NCBI GenBank assembly: GCA_025358925.1
Contig: JANYHT010000048.1
Coordinates: 1-64,000 of the forward strand
From: Gemmatimonadaceae bacterium
Lineage (GTDB): Bacteria; Gemmatimonadota; Gemmatimonadetes; Gemmatimonadales; Gemmatimonadaceae
DNA: 64,000 nucleotides
Direction of reading: 5' to 3'
Both the position numbers and the translations under genes were made by a program. This document shows positions 6,854 to 64,000 of the stretch, one piece after another. Below the pieces are notes generated by a model. It was not told the DNA's origin, ran no database searches, and was given only the letters and a program-made list of their open reading frames with translations. Each line of letters starts with the position of its first letter. Within the stretch, counting starts at the first letter, position 1.

Positions 6854-9010
6854 CTATGGTGCACCCACCCACTGCAACCGCACGCCGGCGTACCATTGGC
6901 GCGCATATGCTGGCGTCCACAGCGCGGGATGCTGACCGAGTACATTGTTCACGCCCGCTGACAGCTCTGCGCGACGCGTCACGGCACAACGAAATTGGGT
7001 ATCGATCGACAGAAACGCACCTTGCCGGCCAATAATGCCCGACCCCGTCGAGAATGCGCCGGTAATCGGAGCGCCGCTGGGAATACCCACCAGCGAAGCA
7101 GCGCCGGTATATCGCGCCGACACATCAGACGACAATCCTCGACGCACCGCCCACTCTCGCGACAAGCGCACGCGCGCCGTGTGCGTCGCGCGACGACTCA
7201 GCGGCAGCCCCGTCCCGAGATCGCGCGCGCGTAAGAAGTCATACCCAGCGGCAAATTCTGTTGCACCGAACGTCGCGTGCACATTGCTCTCAACGCCCTG
7301 TGTTCGTGCTCGCGCCACGTTCACGTTGGTGTAGACTTGAAACCCGGCGGCATTATTCCCTCGATACCGCCAGTCAATCAAATCAGACACGTTATTGCGA
7401 TACCCTTCAACGTCGATGGAGAGTGTCGATACAGGCGCCCACGTGATGCCCAGCGAGCTGCTCCACGAGGATTCCGGTGTCAACGCCGGATTGCCAACTA
7501 ACGTGTAACCTGCGGCTGGATTGAAAAACGTGTAACGCAACTCCTTGAATCCGGGTGCGCGAAATCCACGCGCAACATTGCCGCGGAGACGCAATGACGA
7601 TGTGCTCTGCAATGCAATACCCACAGATGGATTCGTTGCGCTGCCCCAGAGTTGGCTCGCACTGTGTCGCGCACCAATAGTCAGGAGCAGCGGGCCCGTC
7701 GACCACGCGTCGCGCGCATACACTTCATTGACTTCATCCCGCGCGCTATCGCCATCTACTTTACGCGGCGCAATAAGTGTCCGCACAGAACGCTGCACCC
7801 CAATGTCCATCGCGTGCGCGCCGAATACGCGCGTAAACGCGAGCAGATACCGCGACTGGTGTTCCTGCTGCTCCACCGAATCAGCCGATCCACGAATCGG
7901 CAGCAGGCCACGCGATTGTCGGTATTGATACACGAACCGCTGTTCAAACACGCGCGCTCGTAATCCGCCACCCAGCACGGCCGCCTGCGCTTCGAGAAAT
8001 CCTTGCGCACCCTTGTTGTCGATGAAGCCATTGAATTGCGCATCCAAGGGGAAGCGCTGCCGCTCTTGGGATGCTTGGCCATCGACGCGCAGCGTGAGCC
8101 GCCGATTCACTGCAAAACGCAGATCGGTTCGTACATCATAAACGCGATTCAACGTCGAACCTACCGCGTCGTAGCCCGTCACACGATCTGATTGTCGCCA
8201 GCCGCCATTGACGCGATAGCCAAAGCTTCCCACGGTCTGACTCGCGCCAACCGTGCCTTCGCTCCGCCCCAATGCACCAGTGCGCGCCAACGCATCGAGT
8301 GTGAGCCTGCGTGTTGGTGCCGATTGCACAATGTTGATGACACCACCAAGCGCGTCACTCCCGAACTCGACGCTTGATGGGCCCTTCGTCACTTCGATGC
8401 GTTCCGTTGCAATCGTCGACAAACGTCCAATATCGCGACTCTCGATCAGCGAACCGGCCACCGGTTCTCCATCGATCAAGACCAACACACGCGCGTCATC
8501 AAAACCCCTCACGGAAATTGACGTTTTCGACGGTGCTGACGGTATTTCTTGCAGCCCCGGCACTTGACGCAATAATTGATTGACGGACACGGCCGCCACT
8601 GCCGCAATGTCGCGTTTGTCCAGCACGGTCACACTACGTGTCGACTCGCTTGCACGAATGACCCGTTGACCAACCGTCGTCGTGAATACCGGTAACACCG
8701 TTGGCAACGCATCGAGCTGTATTCGCATACTGTCACGCAATACTACAACGCGCTGTTCCCGAAATCCGAGCGCGCGTACCACCAACGTATCACCCGGCCA
8801 GACTGCAAGCGCGAAGTGGCCAACGTCGTTACTGCGCGTCCGCGAATGCGATCGCGCGGCGCGGATGTCCGCCGCGAGCACGCGGCCGCTATCCGCCCGA
8901 CCAAGAACGGTGCCGTTCACCACTATCAACGGCGGAGCCACACGCTCCTGAGCTCGCACCGCCGTGAACGGTAGCACACATAACACCGCCGCCAATCCAC
9001 GTACGATCAT
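6854..9010 (-). CDS. TonB-dependent outer-membrane receptor
   Basis: This 718-aa receptor has a signal peptide (MIVRGLAAVLCVLPFTAVRA), a short carboxypeptidase-regulatory-like domain (about 30-100) and a plug domain (about 120-235). The plug contains LDKRDIAAVAAVSVNQLLRQ, SISVRGFDDARVLVLIDGEP and IEVTKGPSSVEFGSDALGG, the BtuB/haem-receptor style. A long beta-barrel follows, ending near ARQWYAGVRLQWVGAP, an aromatic-rich last strand. It would import a ligand across the outer membrane using TonB energy. Its ATG overlaps the stop of the HmuY-like gene (ATGA), so the two are co-translated. That pairing suggests haem or another iron source, but the ligand is an inference. Confidence 0.92.
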   Translation of the reverse strand: MIVRGLAAVLCVLPFTAVRAQERVAPPLIVVNGTVLGRADSGRVLAADIRAARSHSRTRSNDVGHFALAVWPGDTLVVRALGFREQRVVVLRDSMRIQLDALPTVLPVFTTTVGQRVIRASESTRSVTVLDKRDIAAVAAVSVNQLLRQVPGLQEIPSAPSKTSISVRGFDDARVLVLIDGEPVAGSLIESRDIGRLSTIATERIEVTKGPSSVEFGSDALGGVINIVQSAPTRRLTLDALARTGALGRSEGTVGASQTVGSFGYRVNGGWRQSDRVTGYDAVGSTLNRVYDVRTDLRFAVNRRLTLRVDGQASQERQRFPLDAQFNGFIDNKGAQGFLEAQAAVLGGGLRARVFEQRFVYQYRQSRGLLPIRGSADSVEQQEHQSRYLLAFTRVFGAHAMDIGVQRSVRTLIAPRKVDGDSARDEVNEVYARDAWSTGPLLLTIGARHSASQLWGSATNPSVGIALQSTSSLRLRGNVARGFRAPGFKELRYTFFNPAAGYTLVGNPALTPESSWSSSLGITWAPVSTLSIDVEGYRNNVSDLIDWRYRGNNAAGFQVYTNVNVARARTQGVESNVHATFGATEFAAGYDFLRARDLGTGLPLSRRATHTARVRLSREWAVRRGLSSDVSARYTGAASLVGIPSGAPITGAFSTGSGIIGRQGAFLSIDTQFRCAVTRRAELSAGVNNVLGQHPALWTPAYARQWYAGVRLQWVGAP

Positions 9011-10233: not shown

Positions 10234-11460
10234 TTAGGGGATGGACTGTCCACGCACCGCACCGACTGGACGCTCCGCTTGCACAGCCAAGGTGCCTTCG
10301 CTGGATGGATGCAGCGGTGCACTCACCCGTTCGAGCGGAGGACCAAGCGTCGGCTCGCACACGCCTTCCGCCGTCTCACGAATCAGCTGATCGACCACCG
10401 CGCGCAAATCACCCGTGCGCGCGTACGTTGCCAATTGTCGCTGTGCGCTGGAGCCGTGCTCCATAATATGAAATGCATATTCGACCTCCTTACGGGTGCC
10501 TAACTCGTCCAGTACGTCATCAAGAAACCATTCGATGAGCTCGCGAATAAGCACCGGTGCGGGCATTTCCTGCTTTTTACCGAAATCAATGAGTTTTCCT
10601 CCTAATCCCCATCGCACCGCGCGCCACTTGTTTTCTTCGATCAGGTCCGAGGCATAGACGCGAAACGTCAGGTTATCTCGGCGCAGCTTCCACATCTTTG
10701 CCACCACTGCTTGCAAAATAGCCGCAACACAAATCGCTTCATCAATGCGCGTATTCACGTCGCAAATGCGAAACTCAAGTGTCGGATACAAATGGTGTGG
10801 ACGCACATCCCACCACACCTTCGATCCGTCCGGTATGCTGTTGGTGCGCACCAGCGTATCGGTCAGATCCGCAAAGTCGCTCCACCCGTTCAGGATGCGC
10901 GGCACACCGGTGCGCGGAAAATTCTTGAACACTATACTGCGGTACGAATGCAGCCCCGTATTGCGACCAAACCAAAACGGCGAACTCGTCGACAAACACA
11001 AAATGTGCGGCAAGACATACCGACACGCATTCAGGCAGTCGATGCGAAACTCGTTGTCCTCAATACCAACGTGCACGTGCGTACCGAAAATCAGCAGACG
11101 ATGCGCGAGATCCTGCAGCTCCGCCTTCACGCCGAGATAGCGCTCCTTGGGCGTCATTTCTTGGTTCATCCAGTTCGAAAACGGATGCGTACCCGCCGAG
11201 GCGATGGTCAGCCCGTGTTGCCCTGCCGCCTTGATCACCAGTCCGCGTAGCTTCGTGAGCTCCGTACGCAACTCCGCGATGGACGAACACACCTTCGTAC
11301 CAATTTCGACTTGGCACTGGTGCAGCTCGGCTTTCACGTCGGCGAGGACGGCATCGTCACTGGTCATCAGCGCATCAAAGCCCGGCGTGAGATCACGCGT
11401 CACGGGATCGATAATCTGGTACTCCTCCTCGATGCCCACTGTCAGGCTTGGTCCGCGCAT
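10234..11460 (-). CDS. Carboxylate-amine ligase, GCS2/YbdK family
   Basis: This 408-aa protein begins MRGPSLTVGIEEEYQIIDP. The IEEEYQ acidic cluster is the nucleotide/metal-binding start of the YbdK branch of glutamate-cysteine ligases (GCS2). Further family-like stretches are LLIFGTHVHVGIED, FNACRYVLPHILCLS-like text with TSSPFWFGRNTGLHSYR, and VWWDVRPHHLYPTLEFRICD. The family forms an amide (often gamma-glutamyl) bond from a carboxylate and an amine with ATP, and YbdK itself has weak glutamate-cysteine ligase activity. The start was set at 11460 because its ATG overlaps the upstream stop (TAATG). It is the last gene of a four-gene coupled operon with two ATP-grasp ligases and a PuuD-like hydrolase, so its substrate is probably their product or precursor. 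Confidence 0.88.
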   Translation of the reverse strand: MRGPSLTVGIEEEYQIIDPVTRDLTPGFDALMTSDDAVLADVKAELHQCQVEIGTKVCSSIAELRTELTKLRGLVIKAAGQHGLTIASAGTHPFSNWMNQEMTPKERYLGVKAELQDLAHRLLIFGTHVHVGIEDNEFRIDCLNACRYVLPHILCLSTSSPFWFGRNTGLHSYRSIVFKNFPRTGVPRILNGWSDFADLTDTLVRTNSIPDGSKVWWDVRPHHLYPTLEFRICDVNTRIDEAICVAAILQAVVAKMWKLRRDNLTFRVYASDLIEENKWRAVRWGLGGKLIDFGKKQEMPAPVLIRELIEWFLDDVLDELGTRKEVEYAFHIMEHGSSAQRQLATYARTGDLRAVVDQLIRETAEGVCEPTLGPPLERVSAPLHPSSEGTLAVQAERPVGAVRGQSIP

Positions 11461-12254
11461 TACCGCACCTGTCCTGCGTGGGCCGACCGCGATTGTCGCC
11501 ATTCGACCGATGCACTAATAAAACTGCCGAACAAGTGACGCGTATGCGGATCAGCCATCTCGAACACCTCGGGATGCCACTGTACGCCAACCAGAAACGA
11601 ATCGCCTGCGCCTTCGAGCGCTTCGATCAATCCGTCTGGTGCTGTTGCCGAGACAATAAGCTCGCGACCGACATGCTTGACGCCTTGATGATGCATGCTA
11701 TTCACCGCCACCGTTTCCGTGGCCAACAACGTGGCCAGCCGCGTACCAGCCACAAGATCGACATCGTGCGCCAGATGGTCGCGATCATATCCCGCATTCG
11801 GGAAATAATCATGCTTCTGAAAGGCGGCGTTTTGCGCCGCGAGATCCTGCCAGAGCGATCCGCCGGACGCGACGTTAATCACTTGCAATCCACGACACAG
11901 CCCAAGCACCGGCTTCTGCTCCTCAATGGCCCAACGAACCAACTGGATCTCGACGCGGTCGCGTGCCGGATCGAGGTTACCACATTCCTGTCGAACCGCC
12001 TCGCCATACTCGGCCGGATTTACATCAACACCGCCGGGAATGAGAATGCCGTCAAGCCGTTCGTAGATCTCGCGCAACGTCGCAAGATCGTCGTCGAGCA
12101 AGGGAATCATCCACGGTACCCCGCCGACCATTGTTGCTGCGAGGAAATAGCGCTGATTCATCACCCACGACGCAGGCAGCGCCGGTGGAATGCCATCGAT
12201 TGAATGCAACGTCTGCGTTGTCAACCCAATCACTGGTCGGGTAACCACGGACAT
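11460..12254 (-). CDS. Class I glutamine amidotransferase-like peptidase C26 (PuuD-like)
   Basis: The 264-aa protein has the nucleophile elbow PVLGLCRGLQVIN (Cys120) and the dyad VQWHPEVFE (His227, Glu229). GILIPGGVDVNPAEYGE is characteristic of the gamma-glutamyl-GABA hydrolase (PuuD) branch of C26. Such enzymes hydrolyse gamma-glutamyl amides or transfer ammonia. Its ATG overlaps the stop of the circularly permuted ATP-grasp gene (TGATG), and its own stop overlaps the GCS2 start (TAATG). Placement between ligases suggests removal of a gamma-glutamyl group from an intermediate, or supply of ammonia to a ligase. The sequence cannot decide between these. Confidence 0.9.
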   Translation of the reverse strand: MSVVTRPVIGLTTQTLHSIDGIPPALPASWVMNQRYFLAATMVGGVPWMIPLLDDDLATLREIYERLDGILIPGGVDVNPAEYGEAVRQECGNLDPARDRVEIQLVRWAIEEQKPVLGLCRGLQVINVASGGSLWQDLAAQNAAFQKHDYFPNAGYDRDHLAHDVDLVAGTRLATLLATETVAVNSMHHQGVKHVGRELIVSATAPDGLIEALEGAGDSFLVGVQWHPEVFEMADPHTRHLFGSFISASVEWRQSRSAHAGQVR

Positions 12255-13603
12255 CAGCGTTCCTCCACAAGAAAAGTTGGCACGTTTGAACCACCGCCGG
12301 CGGTGACGTTGAGTAGCGGATCGGTTGCGATGCGGGTGAGTACGCCGGACATGACGGTGCCGTCTATTAAGAATGGCGCCGTATCCAACATGCGCTCGCC
12401 GATGTGCAGCGCACCGTCAGTCCACGCCGGCCAATCTTCACTCGGCACCGTGACCCGTTCTTGGACAATGTGCGGTTCCGCGAGCGCCGACTGAATGGCA
12501 GCCTGCCACGTAGTATCGTTGACTGTCCACCCTAAGACGATCCCCTTGCCCCCGTACTCGTCGTTGGGCTTCAACACCATCGTTTCACGGTTCGCCGCAA
12601 CGTAGGGCAACAGGTCGACGGATTCGCCCCGTACGCTCGTGTGACGTTCCTCCACAACGCGAGTCCACGGCACGTGTTGGGTGACTGCGTCGCGCTGTGC
12701 ATCCGTGAGCAAATGTGCCTGTCGTTCATCACTCACCACGGCCAGCGACGCCTTTTTGTGCAGCACTTTGCAGCGGAAGGGATTGACCATGCACACGGCT
12801 CCGTCGCGTACCGCGCGCACGACGGGTGAGTCTAGCCCTTCACGTGACACCAGTTCGTCGATGAGCACACGCTTATAAATCAGCGTGACGCGCTTGCCCG
12901 CGACCGTAAGCACGCCGTTGTCGTACGCCGCATCACGCGGATCGCCAATAAACGCATCGATTCCTAGCGCCGAGAACTCACGTTCAAAGAGCACAAATTC
13001 ACTGCGCGTTGGAACCGCCGCCCAATCGAGGATGACGACGTTGGGCTTCTCACGGACGCCGCGCCATTGGTGAAATGCAGTGAGCATCGCGTGGACAATG
13101 GACGGCGCCGCAGGAATTGGAAACGCGGCGTGGGTCCGCGAGAACGCGTGCATGGCCGGCAACGCCATGAAGACGCGGGAAAGGGCATCGTTATACGCGC
13201 CTCCCGCAGGCGTCTCCGCGTTGTACTCCGTAAATTTGAGGCCGCCAGCGCCAGGCGCAAAAAACGCATCAAGACGAGACGTCGGACTGGCCACCGCAAA
13301 GCCAGGGTCGGCGTGGATGAGCTGTTCTTCCCATGCCGTCAGGCCGAATTGCGCGCGCAGCGCGTCATTGCCCATCGCCGACACGCGCACGGCTTCAAAT
13401 GCGGAACCCACTAACGCGCAGGCGCGAGCAATATGCCGATATTCGCCGGGCGAGAGAAAGCGCGGACGCAATACCCCGCAGAGTGGACGGTCGCCGAAGA
13501 ACAAACCTTCCCGGCGCAGCAGCTCGTCCAACATGGAGGCCGAGGCTTCAGCCAGATCACCGTGTTCGAGGCTCCCGTGATAGCGTTCTATCATCGCCAG
13601 CAT
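12254..13603 (-). CDS. Circularly permuted ATP-grasp ligase
   Basis: This 449-aa protein shows the order seen in circularly permuted ATP-grasp proteins. An N-terminal alpha/beta part with LKFTEYNAETPAGGAYND is followed by MVNPFRCKVLHKKASLAV, and the ATP-binding MVLKPNDEYGGKGIVLGW comes late, with PHIVQERVTVPSEDWP after it. The family is related to glutathionylspermidine-synthetase-type domains and is expected to form amide or peptide bonds through an acyl-phosphate. The ATG at 13603 was chosen because GAGCGGGGG lies just upstream and it starts 13 nt after the previous stop; a GTG at 13639 is also in frame. It is operonic with a standard ATP-grasp upstream and a C26 hydrolase overlapping downstream. 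Confidence 0.85.
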   Translation of the reverse strand: MLAMIERYHGSLEHGDLAEASASMLDELLRREGLFFGDRPLCGVLRPRFLSPGEYRHIARACALVGSAFEAVRVSAMGNDALRAQFGLTAWEEQLIHADPGFAVASPTSRLDAFFAPGAGGLKFTEYNAETPAGGAYNDALSRVFMALPAMHAFSRTHAAFPIPAAPSIVHAMLTAFHQWRGVREKPNVVILDWAAVPTRSEFVLFEREFSALGIDAFIGDPRDAAYDNGVLTVAGKRVTLIYKRVLIDELVSREGLDSPVVRAVRDGAVCMVNPFRCKVLHKKASLAVVSDERQAHLLTDAQRDAVTQHVPWTRVVEERHTSVRGESVDLLPYVAANRETMVLKPNDEYGGKGIVLGWTVNDTTWQAAIQSALAEPHIVQERVTVPSEDWPAWTDGALHIGERMLDTAPFLIDGTVMSGVLTRIATDPLLNVTAGGGSNVPTFLVEER

Positions 13604-13616
13604 GCGCGGCCCCCGC

Positions 13617-14567
13617 TCAATTCGGACCGATGGGCGCACCCGTCAACGTTGGTGGACGTGGTGCGGTAGCCAATTTGATAGCGAGGTCGGTCATGTGCGT
13701 CACCACCCACTCAAAGTACGATGGCGTCAGCGAATTGATGTCCATGTCCGGCGCCGGATTCATGAAGTCAATCGCATATGGGATGTCGTCTTTTACGGCA
13801 AACTCAACGGTGTTCATGTCGTAGCCGAGCCCGCGACAGAGCGTGAGTGCATCTCGCACGCATCGACCCTCAACCTCTTTCGATAGATAGCCAGGGTCTG
13901 GGATGTAGGCGCGCGCGCCTGGATCATACGGCATGGGCAGCACATGCTCGCGTCCCAGCACCATACAGCGGACGTACTGATCCCATTTCACAAACTCCTG
14001 CACCACCATCGTCAGCGTGCCGCTGCTGTTGTAATGCTTCATCAGTTCGTCCATAGACTGACAGATATAGACATCGCGCCATCCGCCGCCATGCGCGTCC
14101 TTGAGCACACAGGGAAAGCCGATATGCTTTGCAACCCTGGCCCAATCGAGCGGATACGAGAGGTTGCGCAACGACTCCGAATGCGAAATTCCGGCGATGT
14201 AATCTTTGTTGGGGAGCACCATCGTCTTCGGGTGAGCGACGCCCAGCTGCACGGACATGGTCGCGTCGTAGAATTTGTCGTCGGCCGACCACATGAACGG
14301 GTTGTTGATGACCGTCACGCCCATTCGGGTCGCGTGCTTGAGAAAGGTTCGGTAAAAGCCGACTTCGTGCGAGATGCGATCAATAATGAGCGTATACGGC
14401 ACCGGCTGTGCCATATGCGTCGCGTCCAGCCTGATGTATTCCGCAGTGACGCCAGACTGCCGCTTGGCTACGGCGTCAATGAATGCAGGTGGGAATGACC
14501 ATTCTCGCCCAACCAACAAGCCAATCCGAGGTTCGATCGCCAATCTCGTCTCCAGAATGATGTACAT
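13617..14567 (-). CDS. ATP-grasp ligase, RimK-like
   Basis: The 316-aa protein looks like an ATP-grasp ligase of the RimK/glutathione-synthetase shape. There is an N-terminal Rossmann-like part (PRIGLLVGREWSFPPAF), an ATP-binding segment (HIGFPCVLKDAHGGGWRDVY), TMVVQEFVKWDQYVRCMVLG and a metal-binding end, IPYAIDFMNPAPDMDINS. It should activate a carboxylate with ATP and join it to an amine. It is the first gene of the four-gene operon ATP-grasp, permuted ATP-grasp, C26 hydrolase, GCS2. Upstream lies the DnaA-box region with no other gene, so the operon promoter should be between about 14568 and 14640 or within the box cluster. The substrate is unknown. Confidence 0.87.
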   Translation of the reverse strand: MYIILETRLAIEPRIGLLVGREWSFPPAFIDAVAKRQSGVTAEYIRLDATHMAQPVPYTLIIDRISHEVGFYRTFLKHATRMGVTVINNPFMWSADDKFYDATMSVQLGVAHPKTMVLPNKDYIAGISHSESLRNLSYPLDWARVAKHIGFPCVLKDAHGGGWRDVYICQSMDELMKHYNSSGTLTMVVQEFVKWDQYVRCMVLGREHVLPMPYDPGARAYIPDPGYLSKEVEGRCVRDALTLCRGLGYDMNTVEFAVKDDIPYAIDFMNPAPDMDINSLTPSYFEWVVTHMTDLAIKLATAPRPPTLTGAPIGPN

Positions 14568-14639: not shown

Positions 14640-14869
14640 AGTGGATAATTGTCGCCGCGTGAGGCGTTACCGGGCACGTCCGTGGGCTCGTGTTTGCAGT
14701 CCAGTAAAAAGCATATTTGTGATATCGCGCTCTGTGGATAATTATGCACTGCAGCCCGTTAAATACGGGTGTATCACGGATGATGTTTTCCACAAAAAAC
14801 GAAATGTCGATGATACATTGCCACAGTCACTTACCTGCTTTTCCACATCATTACTAACGTATATCCACA
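14640..14869. other. DnaA-box cluster in a gene-free region; candidate oriC or DnaA-binding locus
   Basis: The stretch 14568-15004 holds no convincing gene. It contains a perfect DnaA box in reverse (TGTGGATAA, 14733-14741). One-mismatch boxes are AGTGGATAA (14640-14648), TTATGCACT (14742-14750), TTTTCCACA (14786-14794), TTTTCCACA (14839-14847) and ATATCCACA (14861-14869). A weaker TGCCACA-type site ends at 14825. Sequence between the boxes (14755-14820) is visibly AT-richer than the flanking genes and contains GATGAT runs. The genes to the left run leftwards and the first gene to the right runs rightwards, as around an origin. No dnaA, dnaN, gidA or parAB is present, so origin function is inference. 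Confidence 0.6.
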
Positions 14870-15004
14870 AGGACATCAACAAGTTAGGGTGCAGGCCTCG
14901 TATTGCGTGGACGGGTAGATCGTCATAACATCACCGCCCGCCACGGAACTGGAACGCAAAGTTTCTGCGGGGCTCACGTTTCTGACTTCAGCCAAATCCC
15001 GCTC

Positions 15005-15397
15005 ATGCTCGTCGTCGCCTGCGCCGCTCCATTGGGTTCCATCGAATCCGCTCCGCTTACCTCGCTGCCACTCGGCATCAGTGATTCGGTCTTTGGACTT
15101 GCGGCGTTCTGGGCGTCCGACGACAACTACTTCGTGCGTGCCGAGTCGGCGGACGGCATGGCCTGGTATCGCATTGAGATGGAGGCATTACCCGAGGCGG
15201 GCGACGATGCGACTCGGCGTGCAATGGCTGATTTACTCGCGGACGTCACACCGATCGGCGGCGGGCGCGTTGCGTTTCCGTGGGGTAGTTCGGGTCGGAC
15301 CGTGTATCGCGTATGGCGTTCGCGGAGCACGGGCGCAGCTGCTCGTTTTAAAATCCTGGCAGTTCGAGCTGCGCGGTCACGCCGCCTGCCAGCGTAA
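15005..15397 (+). CDS. Hypothetical protein
   Basis: This is a 130-aa frame with normal-looking composition. Its central part reads ISDSVFGLAAFWASDDNYFV and then GMAWYRIEMEALPEAGDDAT, with VTPIGGGRVAFPWGSSGRTV near the end. I do not recognise a family. The start is the ATG at 15005, though the frame is open to about 14903 and no good ribosome site is seen. The last 50 nt overlap the 3' end of the convergent gene on the other strand, and the Arg/Ala-rich tail encoded there may be of little functional weight. It is the first gene to the right of the DnaA-box cluster. Confidence 0.5.
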   Translation: MLVVACAAPLGSIESAPLTSLPLGISDSVFGLAAFWASDDNYFVRAESADGMAWYRIEMEALPEAGDDATRRAMADLLADVTPIGGGRVAFPWGSSGRTVYRVWRSRSTGAAARFKILAVRAARSRRLPA

Positions 15398-16289
15398 CTC
15401 CGGCCGCCTGTAGCCACGCTAATAGCAGATCCTGCCCATGATCCCCAGCCATGGCGGAGCGTGCCGCGCTCAGATGGAGTTTGAACTCGGCCGAGACGTC
15501 TGGCAGGGTTCGACGGAGGACGGCCACTGTCAGCAATTCCGTGGCATCGGCCATGTGTCGAATGGCGAACTCCGTCATCCGAGCACGCAGCGCAGCGGCA
15601 TTCAACACCGGTCCTTCGGTGGGCACTTCATGGTCAGCGCGACGTTCGCGAAAGGCCGCCAATCGACTTCGCGTGGCGGACAGCGTGGGCAACTCCTCGT
15701 GGGCCTGTTCAGCCAAGGTGGCGACAGGCGCACCGACCAGTCCAAGCCAGGCCATCCACAGCGTACCTCGTGCGTAGGCTTCCCAAGGCTCGCTATCGAG
15801 TGCACGGCCCGTTTTCCGCACCAGCTCTGCAACCCCGTTCCGAACTTCCCACCATCGGAGATAGCTGTCGGATTGTCTGGCCACCAGCGCGAGCGCGCCA
15901 AGTCGGAGCGCCCATTTGACGGCGGACTCGCCGTCGTCGACGGGCGGTCGCAGCGCGGCAGAACATCGAAACGCTCGTGCTGCACCTACGGCCAGTACTG
16001 CTTGAGCGATGTCTCGGTTCGCCGAGGGCATGGGCTGCATCGCGGCTTCCAAGTGGCTCAACGCGGCGAGTTCGTACGCCGTGCCCAACAGTGCCAAACC
16101 GTCCGCGATGGGCTCACCAAGGCCATCGCCTGGAAGCAGCGACGCGGCTTCCGCCCGCTCGAGCAACAGCGCTCGTCGTTCGGGCGGAATAGCGGCGACG
16201 GCCCAGTGCTCGTCCAGCGTGCACTTCGCGAGTACACCCAGATCGCGCGTCGCGCTATCGCGCTCCACCGTGGGGGTGAGGACGTGCAT
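15348..16289 (-). CDS. Hypothetical helical protein
   Basis: This 313-aa protein is mostly alpha-helical in appearance and rich in Ala and Leu (PPERRALLLERAEAASLL, LGTAYELAALSHLEAAMQ, EFKLHLSAARSAMAGDHG). No signal peptide or membrane segment is visible. A good ribosome site (AGAGGAG, about 7 nt) precedes the ATG at 16289, which supports the call. No family is recognised. The repeated helical blocks, including LRLGALALVARQSDSYLRW, could be TPR-like, but no canonical repeat can be defined. It converges on and overlaps the 130-aa gene by 50 nt. Confidence 0.6.
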   Translation of the reverse strand: MHVLTPTVERDSATRDLGVLAKCTLDEHWAVAAIPPERRALLLERAEAASLLPGDGLGEPIADGLALLGTAYELAALSHLEAAMQPMPSANRDIAQAVLAVGAARAFRCSAALRPPVDDGESAVKWALRLGALALVARQSDSYLRWWEVRNGVAELVRKTGRALDSEPWEAYARGTLWMAWLGLVGAPVATLAEQAHEELPTLSATRSRLAAFRERRADHEVPTEGPVLNAAALRARMTEFAIRHMADATELLTVAVLRRTLPDVSAEFKLHLSAARSAMAGDHGQDLLLAWLQAAGVTLAGGVTAQLELPGF

Positions 16290-28713: not shown

Positions 28714-28787
28714 TAGCTGGGGCGGGACTCGAACCCGCGACCCCGGCATTATGAGTGCCGTGCTCTAACCAGCTGAGCTACCCAGCC
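28714..28787 (-). tRNA. tRNA-Met (CAT), elongator type
   Basis: A 74-nt cloverleaf has acceptor GGCTGGG pairing with CCCAGCT (one G-U), D-arm GCTC/GAGC, anticodon stem CGGCA/TGCCG with loop CTCATAA, and T-arm GCGGG-TTCGAGT-CCCGC. The discriminator is A and CCA is not encoded. The fully paired acceptor end argues for elongator Met. A tRNA-Ile with modified CAT anticodon cannot be fully excluded. It lies downstream of the initiator tRNA, both on the minus strand and ahead of the terminator at 28646-28689. Confidence 0.93.
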
Positions 28788-28878
28788 GTACTCCAACTTC
28801 CGACAAACTGATGCTGCCACGCAAACGGCCGACCCTGGTGAGGACCGGCCGATGCGTACTTTAACGCTTCCCAACTGA

Positions 28879-28952
<74 letters not shown>

Positions 28953-57636: not shown

Positions 57637-57723
57637 GGCGTGGTGGCCGAGTGGTTTAAGGCAGCGGTCTTGAAAACCGCCGAACCTGAAAGGGTTCCGT
57701 GAGTTCGAATCTCACCTACGCCG
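57637..57723 (+). tRNA. tRNA-Ser (TGA)
   Basis: This is an 87-nt type II tRNA. Acceptor GGCGTGG pairs with CTACGCC (one G-U), the anticodon stem is GCGGT/ACCGC with loop CTTGAAA (anticodon TGA), the long variable arm is GAACC..GGGTTC, and the T-arm is GTGAG-TTCGAAT-CTCAC. The discriminator is G and CCA is not encoded. It starts 10 nt after the GT117 stop. A T-run (57728-57734) after the gene may end transcription. Confidence 0.96.

Positions 57724-63444: not shown

Positions 63445-64000
<556 letters not shown>

Follow-up and report, generated by a model that had tools for sequence, protein, structure and literature searches.

A conserved DnaA-box array predicted to control the promoter of a small gene in Gemmatimonadaceae

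DnaA is the initiator of bacterial DNA replication, and a cluster of its boxes away from dnaA raises the question of whether the site is a replication origin, a site that takes up DnaA or a locus through which a gene is regulated. Such a cluster was described in an earlier note on a 64,000-nucleotide stretch of Gemmatimonadaceae DNA (the window), which lies on an 81 kb contig (C15) of a 4.0 Mb genome in 72 contigs. All six matches to TTATNCACA that the note had placed within 230 bp (14640-14869), in both orientations, were found, at 14640 and 14733 on the reverse strand, the latter exact, and at 14742, 14786, 14839 and 14861 on the forward strand. Genes diverge around the cluster and neither dnaA nor dnaN is present near it, as the note had said. 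The region is also the AT-richest gene-free stretch in the left half of the window (50% GC), but, contrary to the note, other long ones exist, since ORF picks leave gaps of 359, 635, 471 and 409 bp as well.

Across 300 dinucleotide-shuffled versions of the window, the maximum was 3 matches per 230-bp stretch versus the 6 observed, and in local shuffles of the intergenic region, which gave a mean of 0.44 matches, 6 or more were seen in 0 of 5000. The box density of the whole window was ordinary (22 observed versus 26 expected), indicating that the signal is local to the cluster. A chance cluster was ruled out by the shuffles together with conservation across relatives. A box density above that of the rest of the genome, for which the earlier note had asked, was found in the complete genomes of three relatives; in G020 nowhere else do two exact TTNTCCACA boxes lie 300 bp or less apart, and in G028 and G029 it is the densest box group among the groups listed.

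In all 30 aligned elements, which come from two genera, four of the six boxes are kept, three on the forward strand and one on the reverse. The boxes at 14640 and 14742 are missing already in G018, the closest relative, and seem to be matches by chance. The adjacent pair reported at 14733-14750 is thus correct in its positions, but its second member is probably fortuitous. The boxes, and a further conserved block, are:

14640-14648, reverse strand: reported box TTATCCACT, not conserved, absent in G018 and all others
14716-14722, no strand assigned: TTTGTGA block left of box 1, in 29 of 30 aligned elements and degenerate in G251
14733-14741, reverse strand: DnaA box 1 (TTATCCACA), exact match, TTNTCCACA in 30 of 30 aligned elements
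14742-14750, forward strand: reported adjacent box TTATGCACT, not conserved, absent at that position in G018 and all others
14786-14794, forward strand: DnaA box 2 (TTTTCCACA), at most one mismatch to TTNTCCACA in 30 of 30
14839-14847, forward strand: DnaA box 3 (TTTTCCACA), at most one mismatch in 30 of 30
14861-14869, forward strand: DnaA box 4 (ATATCCACA), weaker, consensus NTATCNACA, at most two mismatches in 97%

The array was present at every same-genus locus beside the ATP-grasp gene that had enough sequence, and its layout in the second genus, g37, was identical to that in the genus of the window. Offsets from box 1 were constant in the 30 aligned elements at +53 for box 2 (30/30), +105 for box 3 and +127 for box 4, and the exceptions were 1-bp changes only, in this genome, G019 and G023. 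Boxes 2 and 3 are 53 bp apart in this genome and 52 bp apart in nearly all relatives, and boxes 3 and 4 are separated by 22 bp. Mean pairwise identity over the 30 elements was 0.92-0.93 for boxes 1-3 and 0.84 for box 4; spacer 1 reached 0.43 and spacer 2 0.35, though each was nearly always of the same length from element to element. The boxes accept any base at position 3, and the sequence of box 4 is degenerate.

Beyond box 4, on the right, come TCAANNNNTTA, a promoter and then the gene hyp_15004:

14876-14886, forward strand: IHF-type core TCAANNNNTTA (TCAACAAGTTA), TCAA-N4-TTA in 30 of 30 elements
14903-14931, forward strand: promoter, -35 TTGCGT at 14903-14908, 17-bp spacer, -10 TAACAT at 14926-14931

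The IHF consensus of Escherichia coli is WATCAANNNNTTR (PMC4585315). Because a weak DnaA-like site coincides in part with the TCAANNNNTTA core in relatives, assignment of the core as an IHF site is uncertain. The promoter pattern, TTGCG[TC]-N17 followed by a TA-rich -10, was conserved in five genera with the -35 at 40-42 bp beyond box 4; this comparison covered the elements other than the second G313 copy and that of G028, the alignment row of which has the usual layout. The spacings of 53, 52, 22 and 42 bp are near whole helical turns and would suit proteins bound on one face of the DNA. Transcription is inferred to start near 14938, with the ATG at 15005, which places the centre of box 4 near -73, and the -35 and -10 are free of boxes. 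The array keeps a constant distance from the promoter on its right, whereas the gap to the ATP-grasp gene on its left is variable.

The genes on either side of the element are:

13617-14567, reverse strand: ATP-grasp protein, divergent left neighbour, in g1 and g37 only
15005-15397, forward strand: hyp_15004, 130 aa, putative target gene, a small conserved ORF immediately following the element
15348-16289, reverse strand: hyp_15348, 313 aa, all-helical, convergent with hyp_15004, 3' ends overlapping

hyp_15004 is conserved throughout the genomes compared and is under purifying selection (dN/dS about 0.1-0.3). Profile searches of Pfam and PDB with hyp_15004 and hyp_15348 gave nothing credible, and assigned hyp_15004 to no family in either database. 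The predicted structures, which are of low confidence (mean pLDDT 57.5 and 64.2, respectively), gave no Foldseek match at E <= 0.001.

A class-wide profile search covering 394 genomes identified the array in 32 and the hyp_15004 gene in 28. The array was located directly upstream of hyp_15004 homologues in five genera (g1, g37, g36, g41 and g43), and hyp_15348 adjoins the element in each of these and in g4. Arrays in three genera beyond g1 and g37 were partial and preceded the same gene and convergent neighbour; that of g36 has more boxes, closer together and spaced 10-13 bp. In g36 and g43 the left neighbour is Ku-LigD instead of the ATP-grasp operon. As the pair on the right stays while the left neighbour changes, the array appears to go with the hyp_15004 promoter, not with the left gene or with a position on the chromosome. 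The ATP-grasp operon was considered as the target and is unlikely, since its distance varies and it is absent beside the element in g36, g41 and g43. This operon (window 10234-14567) encodes a GCS2 carboxylate-amine ligase, a C26 peptidase and two ATP-grasp proteins, and is conserved in the genus.

Two arrays, each with its own hyp_15004-type gene, were found in G313, where both copies surround Ku/LigD-like reading frames (contig 37, 52573-58587; L311). A partial array is present in g4 (G032 and G387) where the hyp_15004 profile gives no match. Array-like matches also occur beside different genes in G297 and G275, which belong to other families. The multi-box array of G297 (L316, about 7044-7180) lies directly before a Nif3-like gene that was recognised by eye, and it may be the origin of that lineage, as a ParB-like frame, likewise recognised by eye, is ~2 kb away. 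Elsewhere in the window, four tRNA genes were seen (28714-28952, 57637-57723 and 63445-63533).

The box cluster lies upstream of the promoter of hyp_15004 and is tied to this gene across relatives, in five genera and in both G313 copies. It is probably a cis-regulatory DnaA array acting on that promoter in the manner of Bacillus subtilis sda. DnaA would load on the strong boxes 1-3 and then spread toward box 4, possibly helped by bending of the DNA by the single IHF/HU-family protein of the genome. Transcription of hyp_15004 would then be set by the level or nucleotide state of DnaA, and the gene would be coupled to the replication cycle, as sda is in Bacillus. With the -35 and -10 left clear of boxes, activation is a likelier outcome than repression or occlusion. 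However, boxes 1 and 2 lie 100-200 bp from the promoter, beyond what simple activation needs, and what is taken as an IHF-type core may in fact be a weak site for DnaA. Box pairs 2-3 bp apart, which E. coli DnaA prefers (PMC11317965), are not seen in the array, the partial array of g4 has no hyp_15004 profile match, and the box-like sites might serve a different protein. That array and gene together form a replication-coupled checkpoint or feedback module in Gemmatimonas and its relatives, in which the phased array would sense the state of DnaA and hyp_15004 would be a new small regulator of the cell cycle or of DnaA, is a tentative extension and rather unlikely.

The earlier note had proposed an oriC separated from dnaA, or else a DnaA-titration or regulatory locus. 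An origin at the array would agree with its being the densest box cluster found, and with the near absence of canonical boxes within 20 kb of dnaA. However, dnaA is on another contig of this genome (C12), where it encodes a full DnaA by TIGR00362 and is followed by a dnaN-like frame in a canonical dnaA-dnaN locus. Skew was sampled from 16-20 kb stretches in three single-contig genomes of the same genus (G020, G028 and G029), and the skew minimum that had been proposed as a check did not fall at the array, the switch fitting dnaA instead. The log-likelihood of an origin at the array versus at dnaA was -13.8 in G020 and -9.1 in G029; in G028 the signal was weak and the best fit likewise at dnaA. 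Within the window itself, cumulative skew does not reach a minimum at 14.7 kb. The dnaA-dnaN intergenic region carries an AT-rich tract with TAGTAGCAGCAG-like repeats in 5/5 genomes, and these repeats fit the DnaA-trio consensus 3'-GAT-5' (PMC6669920), whereas no DnaA-trio tract was noticed by eye at the array. As both the skew switch and the AT-rich tract with trio-like repeats are found there, oriC is most likely at dnaA-dnaN. The array as oriC was ruled out by the skew in complete relatives and by the anatomy of dnaA-dnaN, and this reading is now highly improbable. The regulatory part of the earlier interpretation is supported, as the locus is conserved, present in single copy, rigidly spaced and joined to one promoter.

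A locus like datA or DARS, at which DnaA assembled on the array would hydrolyse or exchange its nucleotide, or would be soaked up, with the promoter incidental or serving to displace the complex, is unlikely but has more in its favour. Strong boxes and an IHF-type site are present in single copy, and datA requires one IHF site plus boxes (PMC10950094). A DARS has three boxes, the opposed pair I and II defining its core (PMC8682772); in the array box 1 opposes box 2, but from 53 bp away. The array also lies at mid-replichore in the three complete genomes, separated from dnaA by 0.35, 0.39 and 0.36 of the circle. This location is possibly a conserved property, though one confounded by synteny within the genus. 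However, the array is bound to one gene and promoter at a fixed distance despite a changing left context, it was duplicated together with the gene in G313, and four boxes would be a small sink for titration. Finally, the tolerance of any base at box position 3 and the degeneracy of box 4 might point to a transcription factor other than DnaA that prefers TTNTCCACA-like sites. This is quite improbable, as the consensus is that of the DnaA box and the same box occurs in the dnaA promoter in 5/5 genomes. There, a single perfect TTATCCACA follows TTGAC (L001 1033-1152, and in G015, G020, G028 and G029), suggesting that DnaA is autoregulated through it and indicating that promoters of the genus make use of this type of box.

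Each genome checked has one IHF/HU-family gene, and its product matches IHF better than HU, with scores below the equivalog cut-offs. A frame with two DnaA-type AAA+ domains was found on contig C26 (G000:C26:43140-44699; L002, L003), with no match to the DnaA DNA-binding domain. Homologues, of 587-747 aa overall, are present in G015, G020, G025, G028 and G029. The frame is preceded in this genome by a small-GTPase-like gene (PF00025 match), and in four genomes the array is 57-107 kb away from it. It could be an Hda-like regulator of DnaA.

To our knowledge, DnaA is known as a transcription factor in few phyla only, and no literature joining Gemmatimonadota and DnaA boxes was found among open-licence papers. 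In the complete genomes, the densest DnaA array found fronts one uncharacterised gene and not the origin, with its spacing kept over several genera, making it a clear and testable case for replication-coupled gene control that points to a new protein family, hyp_15004. A further caution is that, in genomes of this kind, whose probable oriC contains few canonical boxes, origin prediction from box clusters alone is misleading.

Among known systems, the B. subtilis sda promoter, upstream of yqeG/sda, is similar in being a non-origin box cluster in a divergent intergenic region with a small gene downstream, and there DnaA activates a small checkpoint gene from the upstream boxes (PMC4447404, PMC8203912). 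However, the box layout differs, and no sequence relation was found between hyp_15004 and any named family. E. coli DARS1 and DARS2, of the class that promotes release of ADP from DnaA, share opposing strong boxes, an IHF-type site and a non-origin position (PMC4245941, PMC8682772), but the array differs in its box spacing of about 53 bp and in being tied to a conserved promoter and gene. E. coli datA, where an IHF site and boxes stimulate hydrolysis of DnaA-ATP, likewise has DnaA boxes and one IHF-type site outside oriC (PMC10950094); the layout differs, the IHF-type site of the array being between box 4 and the promoter. A dnaA-dnaN oriC also has its boxes in an AT-richer intergenic region, but the array is off the skew switch, and in the genus it is another region, dnaA-dnaN, that is oriC-like. 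The array probably adds a member to the known class of promoters under DnaA-box control, and is not classed as datA, DARS or oriC.
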